This document shows, piece by piece, positions 40,356 through 48,958 of a stretch of DNA of 54,747 bases. Source of the DNA: an uncultured Bacilli bacterium (lineage in GTDB: Bacteria > Bacillota_I > Bacilli_A > RFN20 > CAG-449); the NCBI GenBank assembly GCA_947595215.1, contig CANQEO010000007.1:1-54747 (forward strand), written 5' to 3'. Below the pieces are notes generated by a model, which worked only from the letters and a program-made list of their open reading frames with translations, did no database searches and was not told the DNA's origin. The stretch's first letter is position 1. Every line of letters begins with the position of its first letter. The translations under genes and the position numbers were made by a program.

Positions 40356-40943
40356 ATGATTAATTATCCAAATAAAAAAAACACCGCTCAAATCAATAAC
40401 TCTCTTCATAATTTTGCCAATAGAGGCATGAACTTTGAGCATGCTGTAAATACTTCAAATAGTTATTACGATGAAATTAAACGCGCAATAATCACTAAAC
40501 GTCCCACACCTATCCATATTGTTAAGGTCGATTATAGTGACCACGGACGTATCAAAGATGCCTATTTTGAAAAACAATCGACTGCTGACTATAATGGTGT
40601 ATATCGTTCAAGATATATAGACTTTGAGTGCAAAGAAACAAAATCAAAGACTTCTTTAAGTTTTCATAATATCTCTTCACACCAAATATGTCACTTAGAA
40701 AAAGTAATATTTCATGGTGGGATTGCCTTTTTCTTAATCCATTTTGTAAGCTTAGGTGAAATTTATTTACTAGATGCAAAAATTATTTGTGAATTATATA
40801 ATCGTAAAGAAAGAAAATCAATTACTTACGAAACTATCAAGACCAAAGGAACGCTTGTCGAACAAAGTTATATGCCGAGACTGAAGTACCTTGATGCAGT
40901 TGATAAGGTGTACTTCGATGAAGCACAAAAAGTCAATATTTGA
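40356..40943 (+). CDS. recU: Holliday junction resolvase RecU
   Basis: NFANRGMNFEHAVNTSNSYY, GVYRSRYIDFECKETKSKTSL; upstream of ponA; ends in TGA. Confidence 0.93.
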   Translation: MINYPNKKNTAQINNSLHNFANRGMNFEHAVNTSNSYYDEIKRAIITKRPTPIHIVKVDYSDHGRIKDAYFEKQSTADYNGVYRSRYIDFECKETKSKTSLSFHNISSHQICHLEKVIFHGGIAFFLIHFVSLGEIYLLDAKIICELYNRKERKSITYETIKTKGTLVEQSYMPRLKYLDAVDKVYFDEAQKVNI

Positions 40944-43248
40944 AATAATTACTAGCGGGATATTTATAACAACTTTTTTAGCATCTATAGGAGTTGGTAC
41001 TTTTGTATATCAAAATATAAAAGATTTATCTTATCCGGAAATCGAAAAGCTAATTGAACATCATTATTCCAGAATTTACGATTCTTCTTCTAGATTAATT
41101 GAGACGCTCGGAGAAGATAAAGCAAAATTAGTTCATTATGCTGAATTACCTTCAAATTTAATAAACGCTCTTATCAGCATTGAAGATGAGCATTTTTTTG
41201 AGCATGACGGATTGAATTTTGGAAGAATTTTATTTTCCGCTTTTAATAACATGATGCCGAATTCTTCTCGTCAAGGTGGTTCGACAATCACCCAACAATT
41301 AGTAAAGAATTTACTTCTCTCTTCGGAAGTAAGTTTGTCGCGTAAAGTTCAAGAAGCATATCTGGCTTACCAATTAGAACAAATGATGACTAAAGAAGAA
41401 ATCTTAGAGCAGTACTTCAATCGTATTTACTTTGAAGGAACCATACAAGGAGTTGGATATGCTTCTTATCGTTTTTTCGGTAAGACAGTCGACTTACTTT
41501 CTCTCCCTGAATGTGCTATTTTAGCGGGTATTGTAAAATCGCCTTCAGTTTATTCTCCTTTTAAACATCCAGAAGAATGTAATAAAAGAAAAAATGTCGT
41601 TTTAAAAGCGATGCTAGATAATCATTATATCACTCAAGAACAGTATCAAATCGCATGTGCCAAACACGTTAAAGATTTAGTTATAGAAAAAGGATCTAAC
41701 TACGAAGAAGAAACTTATGAATTTCAAAGTTATCTTGATGTTGTATATCGAGAAGTTACTGAACTTACTGGCTTAAATCCTTTTGCAATCGCGCTAGATA
41801 TTGAAACTTATCTTGATACTTCAGTCCAAGCTTATATTGATGGAATTCAAGATGGAACCAATTTTACATTTGAAGATGATAATCAAGAAGCTGCTTTAGC
41901 AGTGGTAAGAAATGAAGATAGCGCCCTTATTGCTCTCATGGGTGGAAGAGATTATCAAGGACAATTACTTTATAATCGCAGTTATGATATGAAACGTCAA
42001 CCCGCTTCCACTATGAAACCTATCTTTACATATGCTTTAGCAATGGAATATTTGCATTATAATGAACTAAGTTTAGTTCCAGACGAACCTTATACTTATC
42101 CTAACACAACCATAACTGTTCAAAATTCTGATAAACAATATTTAGGCATGATATCGGTTCTTGATGCTTTAGGTTATTCTAGAAACACTTCAACTTTATA
42201 CACTCTTGAAAAAGTTATTAATACTATCGGGACAGATAAAGTAATCGATTATCTTAAAACTATCAACATCATGGATGAAGGAGAATTCACTTATCCATAT
42301 GCAATCGGTGGTATGAAATACGGAGTTTCCCCAATTCAATTAGCAGGTGCTTATGCTATGCTAGCAAATCAAGGAAAATATATTAAACCTTCGACCATAA
42401 AAAAAATTACTGATCAAGAAACTGGAGAAGTAATTTATTCAAGAGATTTAAAAGGGAATCAGGTCATTTCAGAAGCCGCAGCTTCAACGATGACTAGCAC
42501 TTTAACTAGAATGGTAAATCAAAACTACTACAATATTGCTCTTGCAAAACCATCACAAATCGAAATAGCTGGCAAAACCGGAACAAACGCTTATGATAGT
42601 AGCGTCACCACCCGCTATAATTATCCATCTTATGCTGACAGAGATATTTGGTTTGCCGGTTATTCTCCATCTTATTCAATTGCAGTTTGGACTGGGTTTG
42701 ATGAACCAAAAACTGACCAAAAAAATTACTTTGGTCATAATGATTCGCGTCGGTTAGTAGCTAAAAAACTTTTTAAAAACATCATGGAAAAAGTATCTGG
42801 TGCTAATCAAAAATTTACCTATTCTTCATCTCTTGAAAAGGTATCAGTTGTTAAGGGGTTAGAGAAATTTTACATTCCCAATTCGATTGTACCTTCACAA
42901 TTTGTTTCCTATGCATACTTTAGAAAAGAAGAAATTCCGACCGAAATTCTTCCTTATCCAGATTTCACTCCATTAGCAAATATTAATGTTTCAATTTTAA
43001 ATAGCTCGATTAGTATTTCGATTTTAGATGAACTTGGAGAAGATGAAATATACACTCACTTTTTTGGAGATCGCGGATATCTGTTCACAATAAAAACATT
43101 TGACGATGAATATCAAGTGTTTGCAAAATCGTACAATTTAGAAATTCCTGAGAACATAAGTAATATTGAATCAGTGACCATTCAAGAAACTTATGAGAAT
43201 AATTACAATCTTCATGGTGAAGATTATTATTTAACTTTTTTCTTATAG
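40918..43248 (+). CDS. ponA: Class A penicillin-binding protein (PBP1)
   Basis: EDEHFFEHDGLNFGRI, GGSTITQQLVKNLLL, RQPASTMKP, AGKTGTNAYD; SD aaggtg before ATG at 40918. Confidence 0.93.
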   Translation: MKHKKSIFEIITSGIFITTFLASIGVGTFVYQNIKDLSYPEIEKLIEHHYSRIYDSSSRLIETLGEDKAKLVHYAELPSNLINALISIEDEHFFEHDGLNFGRILFSAFNNMMPNSSRQGGSTITQQLVKNLLLSSEVSLSRKVQEAYLAYQLEQMMTKEEILEQYFNRIYFEGTIQGVGYASYRFFGKTVDLLSLPECAILAGIVKSPSVYSPFKHPEECNKRKNVVLKAMLDNHYITQEQYQIACAKHVKDLVIEKGSNYEEETYEFQSYLDVVYREVTELTGLNPFAIALDIETYLDTSVQAYIDGIQDGTNFTFEDDNQEAALAVVRNEDSALIALMGGRDYQGQLLYNRSYDMKRQPASTMKPIFTYALAMEYLHYNELSLVPDEPYTYPNTTITVQNSDKQYLGMISVLDALGYSRNTSTLYTLEKVINTIGTDKVIDYLKTINIMDEGEFTYPYAIGGMKYGVSPIQLAGAYAMLANQGKYIKPSTIKKITDQETGEVIYSRDLKGNQVISEAAASTMTSTLTRMVNQNYYNIALAKPSQIEIAGKTGTNAYDSSVTTRYNYPSYADRDIWFAGYSPSYSIAVWTGFDEPKTDQKNYFGHNDSRRLVAKKLFKNIMEKVSGANQKFTYSSSLEKVSVVKGLEKFYIPNSIVPSQFVSYAYFRKEEIPTEILPYPDFTPLANINVSILNSSISISILDELGEDEIYTHFFGDRGYLFTIKTFDDEYQVFAKSYNLEIPENISNIESVTIQETYENNYNLHGEDYYLTFFL

Positions 43249-43862
43249 TAAGAACAGATATCTTTTAACTCGCATTGATTGCAAGATGGATTTTGCGCTT
43301 TGCAATAGTAACGACCAAAATGAATAAATTGATGATGGGTTAAAATATAGCGCTCTTTAGGAAATAGTTTTTCAAGTTTGCATTCTACTTCTAATGGAGA
43401 TGCATCCAAAGGCGCTAAAGAAAGTCTTTTACTTATTCTTTCAACGTGAGTATCAACAGCAATTCGTGGGATTTTAAACCATTCAGCTTGAACAACATTA
43501 GCGGTCTTTCTTCCTACTCCTCTTAATGAAGTCAGATCTTCGCGGCTATTAGGAACCTTTCCGTCAAAATTACTCAACAAATCATTAGCAATGTTTTTAA
43601 TACTTAATGCTTTATTTTTAAATAAACCTAATGGTTTTATAATCGATTCTAACTCTTCTAATGGAGCTTCTTTTAAAGATTTCAAAGTAGGAAAACGTCC
43701 AAAAAGAACTGGAGTTACATCATTTACTTTTTTATCGGTAGTTTGAGCTGATAACATAACAGCGATCAATAACTCATATTCATTATGATAGATTAGTTCA
43801 CATTTAGCGTCCGGTAATATTTTATCGAGATAATTTGTTATCTTTTCAACCTTTTTATTCAT
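43227..43862 (-). CDS. nth: Endonuclease III
   Basis: VMLSAQTTDKKVN, LRGVGRKTANVV, VDTHVERISKRL, 4Fe-4S Cys cluster CKAQNPSCNQCELKDIC. Confidence 0.95.
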   Translation of the reverse strand: MNKKVEKITNYLDKILPDAKCELIYHNEYELLIAVMLSAQTTDKKVNDVTPVLFGRFPTLKSLKEAPLEELESIIKPLGLFKNKALSIKNIANDLLSNFDGKVPNSREDLTSLRGVGRKTANVVQAEWFKIPRIAVDTHVERISKRLSLAPLDASPLEVECKLEKLFPKERYILTHHQFIHFGRYYCKAQNPSCNQCELKDICSYYKKKVK

Positions 43863-44508
43863 CGCTATCAGTCCAACGATAAGAAGCGATTTCTATTGCT
43901 TCTTCGATTTCCTTTTTATTGCGTTCCGATATAGTCGAATAACCCTCTTTTTCACGATCCTTATGGGTTAATCTTTTAAGCAAAATTTTATCAACTAAAC
44001 GGACAGTTACTTTCTTGTTTTTAGTGGCACATTCATTTAAAGACTCTAGAATCATACTATCTTCTATACCATCTTCTATCCATTCCATAATTTTATCGAT
44101 ATCGAGTCTTGTAAGACTAGTACCCATAACCTTTTCGAATGCTTCAAAAATGTTTTGTTTATCATCCTCACTTAATGTTTGTTCTAACTTGCGTCTTCCT
44201 GTTATTGAATCGGCGTATAACGTTTCAAGTTTTCGATAAGTTGGCGCTAATGAGGTAACTAATAATTGATCTTTATGTTCGTATTCAATAAATTTACGAT
44301 CCATCAAAGAAACAATCAAACGATCAATTTCTTTCTCGTCGATGGTCATTTTAAGCGCTAATGTATCTGCGGTTACTAGCATTGGTTTACTCTTTAAAAT
44401 ATTATCAATAGATAGTAAAATCATCACATCAATTTCGCTAAGACCTAAAGACTTATAACGATCAATTAAAATATATCGATAATCTAATTCATTAATTGAA
44501 ACACCCAT
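43855..44508 (-). CDS. dnaD: DnaD family replication/primosome protein
   Basis: Upstream of nth; FEKVMGTSLTRLDIDKIMEWIEDG typical of DnaD C-terminal domain. Confidence 0.85.
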   Translation of the reverse strand: MGVSINELDYRYILIDRYKSLGLSEIDVMILLSIDNILKSKPMLVTADTLALKMTIDEKEIDRLIVSLMDRKFIEYEHKDQLLVTSLAPTYRKLETLYADSITGRRKLEQTLSEDDKQNIFEAFEKVMGTSLTRLDIDKIMEWIEDGIEDSMILESLNECATKNKKVTVRLVDKILLKRLTHKDREKEGYSTISERNKKEIEEAIEIASYRWTDSDE

Positions 44509-44555: not shown

Positions 44556-46205
44556 CTATTTACACACTTTTTTAAATACTCTCAAGAAATTTTTAGAAAA
44601 CATTTTATCTAATTCCTTTTCTTCAAAACCTTCTTTAAGTAATCGCTCATATAATAGGTTAATCTTTGAAGCATCGCTTAATAAGGGTGGTGTATCTATT
44701 CCATCAAAATCAGATCCTAAAGCCAACACATTAATTCCAGCAATGTCTTTAATATGTTTTATATGTTTAACTAATTCATCCATATAAGATGCATTACTAT
44801 CCAAAGTGACAAAATCTTTACAAAAATTAATTCCAATTACTCCACCTTTTAACGCGATTTGTTTTATTAAATCATCACTTAAATTTCTAGAACACTTATC
44901 GACAAAACGGGAATTCGAATGGCTAGCCACAATCGGATAAGTAGAATACTTTATGACATCTTCAGTTCCTTTGTCAGAAAGGTGAGAAACATCAATAATC
45001 ATTCCCAATTTATTCATTTTCTTCACTACTTCAATGCCAAAAGATGTTAATCCATTTTCACTTTCAACAAAAGTGATACCTTTAAATTTATCAAGATTTA
45101 TTTGAGGATGACCTAATTCATTTTCAAAGTTCCATGTTAAAGTCATCAACCGGCAACCACGATTGTAAAAATGTTCTAATTTGTTTAAATCACCTTCGAT
45201 TATTTCGCCACCTTCTAGAGTTATTAAAGCACCAATTCGGTTATAATTTCGAACTTTTAAATATTCATCATAGTTAGTTACTTTTTGGATATATGTTTTG
45301 TTTTCAGCTAATTCTGATTCAAAGTTATCTAAATATTTATTTGCTAACTCAAAAAGATTTCCCCTTTTTTTATTGATAAATATTGCAAAAGCTTGCATAG
45401 CATAAGAAGAGGTTTTCAATTTGTTGAGGTCAACATGTAAATCATTTTTAATAAGCTTTTGATTTTTATCTAAAAGCGCTGTTAAGGTATCACAATGCAA
45501 ATCGATTATCGGTTTATCTAAAAGAGAATATGTAATAGGTATCACTTTATCCAATTCAAAATGTTTGATTTCAGCAATCATTTTTTCATGATTTTCGAAA
45601 GGTACCTTATTAATCTCTTCTTTGATTTTAGCAACTGAGAGATGTTTCAATAGATGTCTTTGATTAATAATCGCGTTTGCAAGTGACGCATCATATTCTA
45701 AGTATAAAGTTGTTTTAAAACGTATCGCGCGCAATATGCGAAGTGGATCTTCTTCAAATCTTATATATGGATCTCCGATGCATCTTAAAATTCCTTTTTT
45801 AAGATCAGCGATACCATTATGATAATCATATACATTCATTTCAGAATCCATATATATCGCGTTAATAGTAAAATCACGTCGTTTAGAATCTAATTCTAAA
45901 TCTTTTACAAAAGTAACTTCTCGAGGATGGCGATAATCTAAATAATTTTCTTCAGTTCTTAAAGTAGTAATATCTATTCTTTCATTTTTATAGATAAAAG
46001 TTATACTTCCTAAAGATTTATAAGAAGATTTATTCCCTGGAAAGATCTTTTCAATTTCGGAAGGTTCAAGATCGCTTACAAAGTCAAAGTCTTTATAATT
46101 GCGACCATTTAGAAAATCACGGACCGCACCCCCAACTAAATAAAGTTTTCCTCCGTTTTTATTAATTGTTTTACTCAATTCTTTAAATATCTCAAATTGA
46201 TTCAT
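44556..46205 (-). CDS. Fusion: CCA-adding enzyme/poly(A) polymerase head-neck (about aa 1-220) + membrane dipeptidase, peptidase M19 (about aa 229-549)
   Basis: LVGGAVRD, DFDFVSD, SKRRDFTINAIY, EEDPLRILRAIRF; then DLHCDT, LEGGE, DVSHLS, ASHSNSR, LGSDFDGID, in one uninterrupted frame. Confidence 0.92.
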   Translation of the reverse strand: MNQFEIFKELSKTINKNGGKLYLVGGAVRDFLNGRNYKDFDFVSDLEPSEIEKIFPGNKSSYKSLGSITFIYKNERIDITTLRTEENYLDYRHPREVTFVKDLELDSKRRDFTINAIYMDSEMNVYDYHNGIADLKKGILRCIGDPYIRFEEDPLRILRAIRFKTTLYLEYDASLANAIINQRHLLKHLSVAKIKEEINKVPFENHEKMIAEIKHFELDKVIPITYSLLDKPIIDLHCDTLTALLDKNQKLIKNDLHVDLNKLKTSSYAMQAFAIFINKKRGNLFELANKYLDNFESELAENKTYIQKVTNYDEYLKVRNYNRIGALITLEGGEIIEGDLNKLEHFYNRGCRLMTLTWNFENELGHPQINLDKFKGITFVESENGLTSFGIEVVKKMNKLGMIIDVSHLSDKGTEDVIKYSTYPIVASHSNSRFVDKCSRNLSDDLIKQIALKGGVIGINFCKDFVTLDSNASYMDELVKHIKHIKDIAGINVLALGSDFDGIDTPPLLSDASKINLLYERLLKEGFEEKELDKMFSKNFLRVFKKVCK

Positions 46206-46839
46206 TAAGTTTTGTCCTCAAGCCTTCAAAAGTTCCAATTGTTTTAAGCGCCTTTATTACACCTAATGCATACACTTTTTTATCTTTTATTTCGTGTATT
46301 AAAGTAATTGAATCTTCTTCAGTTTCAAATATTATATCATGCCGATAGACAAATTGGTCTCCACGATGTGAAATTATTTTAATATGCTCTTCTCCTAAGA
46401 GATTTTTTAATAGTAAAGCTGTTCCTGAAGGAACATCTTTTTTAGATTTATGATGACTTTCTTTGATAGTTATATCACAATCTTTTTTTAATATATCTAA
46501 GCACGCTGCTACTTTCCAAAACGATTCAGCAAAATTATATACAAGATACGCTGATAAATGATTCTCTTTTGCTAATGAAGAAATTAATAAAATCGCATCA
46601 AATGGTATTCCAGTAGTACCCGAAATAAAATGAACACCATTTGTGAGACAAAGTATAGCGCTTCTTAAACATTCGCCCCGTTCTGTAAAATCAACTAATA
46701 CATCAATAGGCTCTTTTTTTAATTTTTCAATTGTCAATGGACAATCAAAATCATATCCATATACTTCATATTTTTCTTTCAATACATTATAAACAACCGC
46801 CCCCATTTTGCCACGATATCCATTTACTCCAATAATCAT
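46192..46839 (-). CDS. dapB: 4-hydroxy-tetrahydrodipicolinate reductase
   Basis: VNGYRGKMGAVV, DVLVDFTERG, GTTGI, ESHHKSKKDVPSGTAL. Confidence 0.92.
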   Translation of the reverse strand: MIIGVNGYRGKMGAVVYNVLKEKYEVYGYDFDCPLTIEKLKKEPIDVLVDFTERGECLRSAILCLTNGVHFISGTTGIPFDAILLISSLAKENHLSAYLVYNFAESFWKVAACLDILKKDCDITIKESHHKSKKDVPSGTALLLKNLLGEEHIKIISHRGDQFVYRHDIIFETEEDSITLIHEIKDKKVYALGVIKALKTIGTFEGLRTKLNESI

Positions 46840-47479: not shown

Positions 47480-48958
47480 TTAGAAAACAAATGCGATTAA
47501 ATTGCCGCGACCTTTATTTGAAATTGTTTTAATAAGTTGCTGTAATTTAACTTTTACTGGCTCTGGCAAATTATTTAATTTCGAAGAAATATTTTCGTTT
47601 AAAATGTCCTTAAATTGCCTGCCAAATAATTCACAATCAAGGATAGCCGTTTCGTTCTTCTCATAGGCCTCTAAAAGATAATTTACAAAGTATTCAGCTT
47701 GTTCTTTAGCGCCTAAAACTGGTTCGAATGTGGTTGAGACATCAACCTTAATAATATGGTATGAAGGAGATGTGGCTTTTACCTTAATTCCATAGCGATT
47801 ATTGACTTTAACCATTTCCGGTTTATCAATTTGTAACTTATCTAATGGGGAACTCGCAAAACCATAACCAGTTGCTTCAGCCATTTTTAAAGCCGAACCG
47901 ATTAAATCATAATCCTTCTTTGCTTTTACATATTCGCTTAACACTGCGATTAATTGAGCCTTATCACTTATCTCACATCCCACTAATTCTTTTAAAACTT
48001 GATCATAAAGTTCTTCATTTACATCTAATTGAACTGTGACAATACCTGTACCAGTATCAACGTTTTGCAAATTGACTTCAGTTAAATATTCATTTTTGCG
48101 AAGAATATCATTGATCATATCAACATCTTTAACAATCTTAGCTTCTTTCATCGCCATGTCGATTGATTGTTTGATAGAAACTTTGATGTAATGCTCATCA
48201 TCAAGGGAACTTACCCATGTTGGAAGTGTCATCTCAATGCCGCTGATTGGATATTGATATAGAGCCGCTTTTAAAATTTCGGTAGCTTCTTTTTGTCCCA
48301 TTGACATCACATCTAAAGCAATTACTGGAACTTGGTATTTTTCTTCCAATTCTTTAGCTAATGAGAGAGTTTCTTCTTTACCAGGAGTCTTTGTATTCAT
48401 AACAATTACGAATGGCTTATCGATTTCTTTCATCTCTTCGATAACCTTACGTTCAGCTCCTAAATAATCTTGACGATTAAAGTCATTGATTGTTCCATCG
48501 CTAATGATGACGATTCCGATTGTAGAATGATCTTTAATAACTTTTTCAGTTCCGATACGCGCCGCATCATCAAAAGGGATGGTTTCAGTGAACCATGGAG
48601 TTTTTACCATGCGCATCTTACCATCTTCTAAATAACCATTTGCGCTATCAATAATAAAACCGACACAATCGATTAACCTAATTTTAACAGATAAAGTTTC
48701 ATCAATTTGAATCGATACTGCATTAGATGGAACAAACTTCGGTTCCATCGTCATAATTGTGCGACCTTCACCCGATTGAGGAAGTTCATCTAATGCCCGC
48801 TTCTTTTCACTTTCATCAGTGATATTTTCAATTACCACAGTTTCCATAAAGCGTTTAATAAAAGTTGATTTACCTACTCTTACTGGACCGACTACGCCTA
48901 GATATACATCACCATTATTTCGTAAGCCGATATCTCTTAACACTTGCAATGTGTCCAT
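47480..48958 (-). CDS. spoIVA: Stage IV sporulation protein A
   Basis: GVVGPVRVGKSTFIKRFME, PQSGEGRTIMTMEPKFVP, C-terminal KGRGNLIAFVF. Confidence 0.97.
   Translation of the reverse strand: MDTLQVLRDIGLRNNGDVYLGVVGPVRVGKSTFIKRFMETVVIENITDESEKKRALDELPQSGEGRTIMTMEPKFVPSNAVSIQIDETLSVKIRLIDCVGFIIDSANGYLEDGKMRMVKTPWFTETIPFDDAARIGTEKVIKDHSTIGIVIISDGTINDFNRQDYLGAERKVIEEMKEIDKPFVIVMNTKTPGKEETLSLAKELEEKYQVPVIALDVMSMGQKEATEILKAALYQYPISGIEMTLPTWVSSLDDEHYIKVSIKQSIDMAMKEAKIVKDVDMINDILRKNEYLTEVNLQNVDTGTGIVTVQLDVNEELYDQVLKELVGCEISDKAQLIAVLSEYVKAKKDYDLIGSALKMAEATGYGFASSPLDKLQIDKPEMVKVNNRYGIKVKATSPSYHIIKVDVSTTFEPVLGAKEQAEYFVNYLLEAYEKNETAILDCELFGRQFKDILNENISSKLNNLPEPVKVKLQQLIKTISNKGRGNLIAFVF

Follow-up and report, generated by a model that had tools for sequence, protein, structure and literature searches.

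Across the order to which this uncultured Bacilli bacterium belongs, the usual tRNA nucleotidyltransferase (NTase) is a class II enzyme cut down to its head and neck, and in one family of that order the same core continues in frame into a complete M19 dipeptidase. Of these two findings, the order-wide head-and-neck enzyme is the stronger and the more unusual. We would give equal weight to either side of the full proposition, namely that this minimal NTase of some 200–230 aa is functional and that in one family a working dipeptidase forms part of the same polypeptide; as regards the fused protein itself, the balance tilts towards its being the orthologue of cca, in which a body-less enzyme solely responsible for maintaining CCA ends would be combined with an independent cytosolic dipeptidase.

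The head-and-neck enzyme of the order

The survey comprised 99 relatives and then 156 genomes at least 90% complete, and all counts given for the latter are counts among the matches listed. On this basis, an NTase frame of about 200–300 aa limited to head and neck is found in approximately 120 of the 156 near-complete genomes of the order, the full-length enzyme alone in 13 and both forms in 2, while in 3 of the 156 (G076, G095 and G319) no PolyA_pol gene was detected among the matches listed, so that these may have lost the CCA enzyme entirely and the function may even be dispensable; the remaining genomes are those of the window's family (the window being the whole stretch of 54,747 nucleotides analysed). 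The head-only examples scanned with Pfam match PolyA_pol but no tail model, and the model of the neck region matches them in part or not at all; the full-length enzymes of the order that were scanned carry PF13735. In the class outside the order, nearly all the NTase frames among the matches listed are at least 360 aa long, and a tree of the head domain sets most of the head-only and fused proteins apart from the full-length ones, the support for this grouping being moderate.

The position of the gene is conserved as well. In the window, the fused gene (44556..46205, minus strand) is overlapped at its start by the dapB immediately upstream (46192..46839, minus strand), an overlap that the initial annotation, made from the sequence alone, had pointed out and that amounts to 14 nt (46192–46205), the dapB frame matching both DapB_N and DapB_C. 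Immediately downstream lie dnaD (43855..44508) and then nth, encoding endonuclease III (43227..43862), both on the minus strand, followed on the plus strand by a ponA-like penicillin-binding protein gene (40891..43248) and recU (40356..40943). We take dapB, cca, dnaD, nth, ponA and recU to lie in the same wider region in B. subtilis. This resemblance in gene order, taken with the mycoplasma-like families of the class, makes it likely that the order is one of small-genome Bacilli close to the Mollicutes. The head-only genes of families f2, f4, f5 and f8 occupy the same cca-dnaD-nth locus, with recU wherever the locus is long enough, and in one of these genomes (G029) dapB, ponA and spoIVA are also present; the order (dapB)-cca-dnaD-nth-(ponA)-recU is thus common to the fused family and to the head-only families. 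The window also contains a complete SpoIVA (47480–48958, minus strand), which suggests that this small-genome lineage has retained sporulation genes.

In some genomes of family f5 (G049, G061, G063, G067 and G069), a head-only NTase gene coexists with a full-length one; in the two of them examined, G049 and G061, the dnaD-nth locus is occupied by the head-only copy, the full-length copy lying elsewhere. A head-only copy beside a full-length enzyme could have another job, and, given that the whole tRNA-binding half has been lost, the core might have been repurposed for another RNA or another small substrate instead of tRNA 3′ ends. We regard this as unlikely, because the class II catalytic motifs, the Asp/Arg template and the Arg of the flexible loop are invariant in the window's family, because in most genomes the core is the sole NTase and lies at the native cca locus, and because a genome of the order that has the one form, head-only or full-length, for the most part lacks the other.

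The fused gene and its conservation in one family

The fusion is a single open reading frame of 549 aa on the minus strand, running uninterrupted from an ATG at 46205 to 44556. The initial annotation had given these limits without a strand and had described one polypeptide joining an NTase head to a complete M19 dipeptidase; Pfam matches both parts, every motif it quoted is present, and relatives conserve the arrangement. The head domain (residues 1–141; 45783..46205, minus strand) matches PolyA_pol over residues 21–141 (E 1.4e-33) and has the motifs of a class II head, that is, GG..RD, the DFD of motif A with its catalytic DxD (D39 and D41; 46083..46091), the flexible loop and RRDFTINA. The NTase part ends with the neck helices (residues 142–226; 45528..45782), which include motif E and one further helix and which the AlphaFold2 model places at 146–215; here are found motif D (EDPLR, 45738..45752), an EDxxR nucleotide template whose D153 and R156 are the amino-acid template that, in class II enzymes, pairs with CTP or ATP (PMC3925840), and the glutamate of motif E (E197), as in a class II neck. 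The NCBIfam CCA-enzyme model scores 212.5 bits against a cut-off of 290 and is matched at positions 7–229 of 396 only; since its body and tail part is unmatched, the NTase half is a head and neck without body or tail, and neither PF13735 nor the full-length curated model recognizes the fusion protein.

The complete M19 domain follows at residues 230–546 (44568..45518, minus strand), covering positions 5–319 of the 319 of the Pfam model (E 1.9e-90; 303.7 bits against a cut-off of 26), which makes it a full-length domain. Its match begins at nt 45518, so that the junction falls near nt 45520, where it had previously been placed. The M19 active site is complete, with the metal ligands H237 and D239 in the first-strand DLHCDT (45486..45503), E331 in LEGGE (45213..45215), H408 in DVSHLS (44982..44984) and H429 in ASHSNS (44919..44921), and the catalytic D499 in GSDFDG (44709..44711), all on the minus strand. 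An AlphaFold2 model of the two-domain protein (27-row alignment) has a mean pLDDT of 92.5 and a pTM of 0.86, and Foldseek searches of the PDB assign the M19 half to Listeria Lmo2462 (3lu2, TM 0.93 by target length) and the NTase half to the class II CCA-adding enzymes 6qy6 and 1miv, in concordance with the sequence searches.

With the known class II enzymes of B. stearothermophilus (1miv) and Planococcus halocryophilus (6ibp/6qy6), the fusion shares head, neck, motifs A–E, flexible loop, Asp/Arg template and cca locus, but unlike them it lacks body and tail, is joined to M19 and lies below the curated CCA cut-off. The stand-alone NTases of the order (for example G080, 206 aa; G037, 201 aa; G018, 227 aa) share its truncation, locus and motifs, but have no peptidase attached. 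In turn, the peptidase half has the TIM barrel and the full set of metal ligands of M19 dipeptidases such as Lmo2462 (3lu2/3neh), Streptomyces Sco3058 and human DPEP1; unlike the membrane (renal-type) enzymes of this group, it stands behind the core of a cytosolic RNA enzyme and has no signal peptide or anchor, and since in this position a signal peptide is impossible, it would be cytosolic.

The protein search for the fusion among the 99 relatives gave matches in the window's genus and in genera g3 and g4. Both halves are intact in 14 species from separate assemblies, the window's and 13 relatives, which belong to three genera of one family, the relatives' proteins being 39–59% identical to that of the window; a further relative (G006) has the fusion with a decayed M19 half. 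The distance from EDPLR to DxHC is 82–85 residues in all the intact fusions. None of the 15 fused proteins departs from D39, D41, D78, R92, R109, R110, D111, N115, E152, D153, R156 and E197 in the NTase half, and 14 of the 15 share H237, D239, E331, H408, H429, R440 and D499 in the M19 half. In comparisons among the three nearest congeners of the window's species, dN/dS is 0.10–0.17 for the NTase half and 0.11–0.18 for the M19 half, and thus purifying selection acts on both. That the frame might be an artefact of assembly or of frameshifted neighbors could be supposed of a draft genome 65% complete, but the same junction in 14 independent assemblies, together with the invariance of both sets of catalytic residues, refutes the supposition and leaves it with next to no probability. 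Nor is there a conserved internal start codon at the junction among the fused relatives, which argues against the production of a separate M19 chain from an internal translation start.

The fused gene is also the only NTase gene detected. Every genome of the window's family, including 15 at least 90% complete, has a single match to PF01743, a result that answers the initial concern about a second cca for each near-complete relative, and no tail domain that could act in trans was found in the family, where the sole weak match (G009) scores 15 bits and has a stop inside.

Origin of the fusion and fate of the peptidase half

Because stand-alone head-and-neck enzymes are the rule across the order, and are mostly at the same locus, the loss of body and tail most likely came before the fusion, with M19 being added later in the window's family, as far as can be read from the distribution of the sequences. 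In this succession, cca would have been reduced to the class II head and neck core in the ancestry of the order, and subsequently, in the ancestry of the family, a complete M19 metallodipeptidase would have been joined in frame to the C-terminus of the NTase. The initial annotation had proposed a domain replacement at the native cca locus; the fusion is genuine and the locus is indeed the native one, but the peptidase did not, most likely, take the place of the body and tail, since a head and neck without them is the norm of the order and the truncation would predate the fusion.

The M19 family is scarce in this group, and no more than 21 of the relatives' genomes have it. In the order it is fused in the window's family, whereas G018, G022, G029 and G034 have it as a separate gene at a different locus, and the copies of G026 and G091 diverge further; the neighbors of these stand-alone genes in the order show no consistent context, and the genomes of the fused family are otherwise without a stand-alone M19. 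The fused M19 domains may have arisen once, a hypothesis that the data do not reject (p-AU 0.19), but in the M19 tree the fused copies of g4 group with the stand-alone copies of family f8.

Other fusions of these domains occur as well. In f23, another family of the class, M19 follows diaminopimelate decarboxylase, LysA (L254:1231-3438 in G241, 735 aa; L255:1323-3509 in G188, 728 aa), in genes adjoining dusB-like and PBP4B-like genes, and frames of 730–762 aa suggest that the arrangement is common there. With 398 bits, the LysA part clears its cut-off of 298. These proteins share with the window's fusion a C-terminal M19 on an unrelated cytosolic enzyme and a link to the diaminopimelate pathway, and differ from it in the partner and in the M19, which appears to be of another subtype. 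A CCA-enzyme frame with PolyA_pol and PolyA_pol_RNAbd also stands behind a haloacid-dehalogenase-like hydrolase in G229 (L178:1565-3526, 653 aa).

The peptidase half has not had the same fate everywhere in the family. In G006 (genus g4), four of the five metal ligands have been lost (H to N, D to N, H to S and H to Y), as has the last part of the M19 domain, whereas none of the NTase residues has changed, so that M19 catalysis looks dispensable in this species; in the comparison of G009 with G006, dN/dS is 0.57 for the M19 half and 0.43 for the head. In genus g2, the protein is of 325–328 aa, without a Pfam match to M19: in its three genomes (G004, G007 and G010; L064:6123-7109, L065:5683-6669 and L066:6040-7017), the head and neck NTase bears a C-terminal extension of about 120 aa that matches no family. 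The order of strands and helices in this extension resembles the start of an M19 barrel in an AlphaFold2 model that is of low confidence in that very region, and profile-profile, HMM and shuffled-profile scores are all at chance level; the extension is possibly a remnant of M19. Judging from the residues conserved, the NTase would be the constant activity, whereas in the peptidase half the active site may decay, as in G006, or the domain go undetected, as in g2.

Such decay, the dN/dS of 0.57 and the absence of a Pfam M19 in g2 would agree with a neutral fusion, in which a downstream M19 gene was joined by the loss of a stop codon to an enzyme with a free C-terminus and has merely persisted there. 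This neutral course is very unlikely, however, since the M19 residues and the low dN/dS are maintained across g1, g3 and most of g4, which argues for a dipeptidase under selection, and since the genomes of the family have otherwise no M19 of their own.

tRNA holding, encoded CCA and the roles of the two halves

In class II enzymes, the nucleotide lies between head and neck, where it pairs with the Asp/Arg template, and body and tail hold the acceptor and the T arm of the tRNA (PMC3925840, PMC8563995). Going by its motifs, the fusion possesses all the parts needed for the choice of nucleotide and for the chemistry, and lacks those that grip the tRNA. The Romanomermis enzyme has an altered catalytic core that binds tRNA with higher affinity and so offsets the contacts lost with the C-terminal half (PMC7730189), so that compensation of this type is possible. 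A compensation by basic charge was considered and discarded, as the charge does not differ between the head-only, fused and full-length groups. No assayed class II enzyme made up of head and neck only was found in the open-licence literature, nor any open-licence paper joining a CCA tRNA nucleotidyltransferase to peptidase M19, an absence that is not proof in either case.

The M19 barrel could itself have replaced body and tail as a structural clamp for the tRNA or as a stabilizer of the neck, its peptidase activity being secondary. The near-constant spacing of the junction and the confident two-domain model (pTM 0.86) would agree with this, as would the retention of an M19-derived domain after the decay of the metal site in G006 and of the C-terminal extension in g2. 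However, the other families of the order manage without any C-terminal domain, most fused members have an M19 half whose net charge is negative or close to zero, and the metal site is strictly kept in 14 of 15 proteins with low dN/dS, all of which makes a clamp quite improbable. The idea, initially put forward, that the fusion pairs tRNA 3′-end metabolism with peptide hydrolysis finds no support either, in view of the intact NTase beside a decayed M19 in G006 and of an M19 part that is not basic.

All the tRNA genes examined encode CCA: 28 of 28 in the window's genome, 36 of 36 in G001 and 35 of 35 in G080, and therefore the enzyme would be needed at most for repair. The initial annotation had counted three tRNA genes in the window, where only two were found, but what it said of their CCA holds for the whole genome. 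It had also supposed that encoded CCA relaxes the need for the complete enzyme; the premise stands, but it is not specific to genomes with fused or head-only forms, as a genome with the full-length enzyme (G042) likewise encodes CCA in 32 of 32 tRNA genes. Encoded CCA is thus ruled out as a marker of truncated enzymes, and by itself does not explain the truncation. Mollicutes whose tRNA genes encode CCA have dropped the CCA enzyme altogether (PMC4014445), and in the survey of the class, families f11 and f22, with genomes of 0.7–1.3 Mb, have no NTase match; the order looks like an intermediate state towards a loss of the enzyme of the Mollicutes type.

Among the roles first suggested for the fusion, two independent activities and a CCA enzyme confined to repair fit best. 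In the reading we favor, that of a sole, body-less enzyme for CCA ends accompanied by an independent dipeptidase, the most likely activity of the core is CCA repair without body or tail: on tRNAs with a gene-encoded CCA it would restore the last A or CA, CTP and ATP being selected by its D153/R156 template, and its contact with the tRNA would be limited to the 3′ end and the acceptor. The M19 domain, produced from the dapB operon, would be a cytosolic dipeptidase that works independently, its dipeptides plausibly coming from cell-wall or amino-acid turnover. Such a role, rather than one in tRNA, is suggested by the overlap with dapB and by the LysA-M19 fusions, although dapB also adjoins cca in the head-only G029, so that the adjacency is probably older than the fusion and its link to the role of the peptidase is a lead only.

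Class II CCA enzymes are considered to grip the tRNA with the half made up of body and tail. An order that keeps the catalytic half only, under selection and usually as the sole copy, would therefore offer a natural minimal enzyme for what CCA addition requires, and that this cut-down enzyme is the normal form there raises the question of how the tRNA is held. In the window's family, the fusion would constitute a natural experiment on the addition of an unrelated domain at the end of a head and neck, with one species in which the peptidase half alone has decayed.
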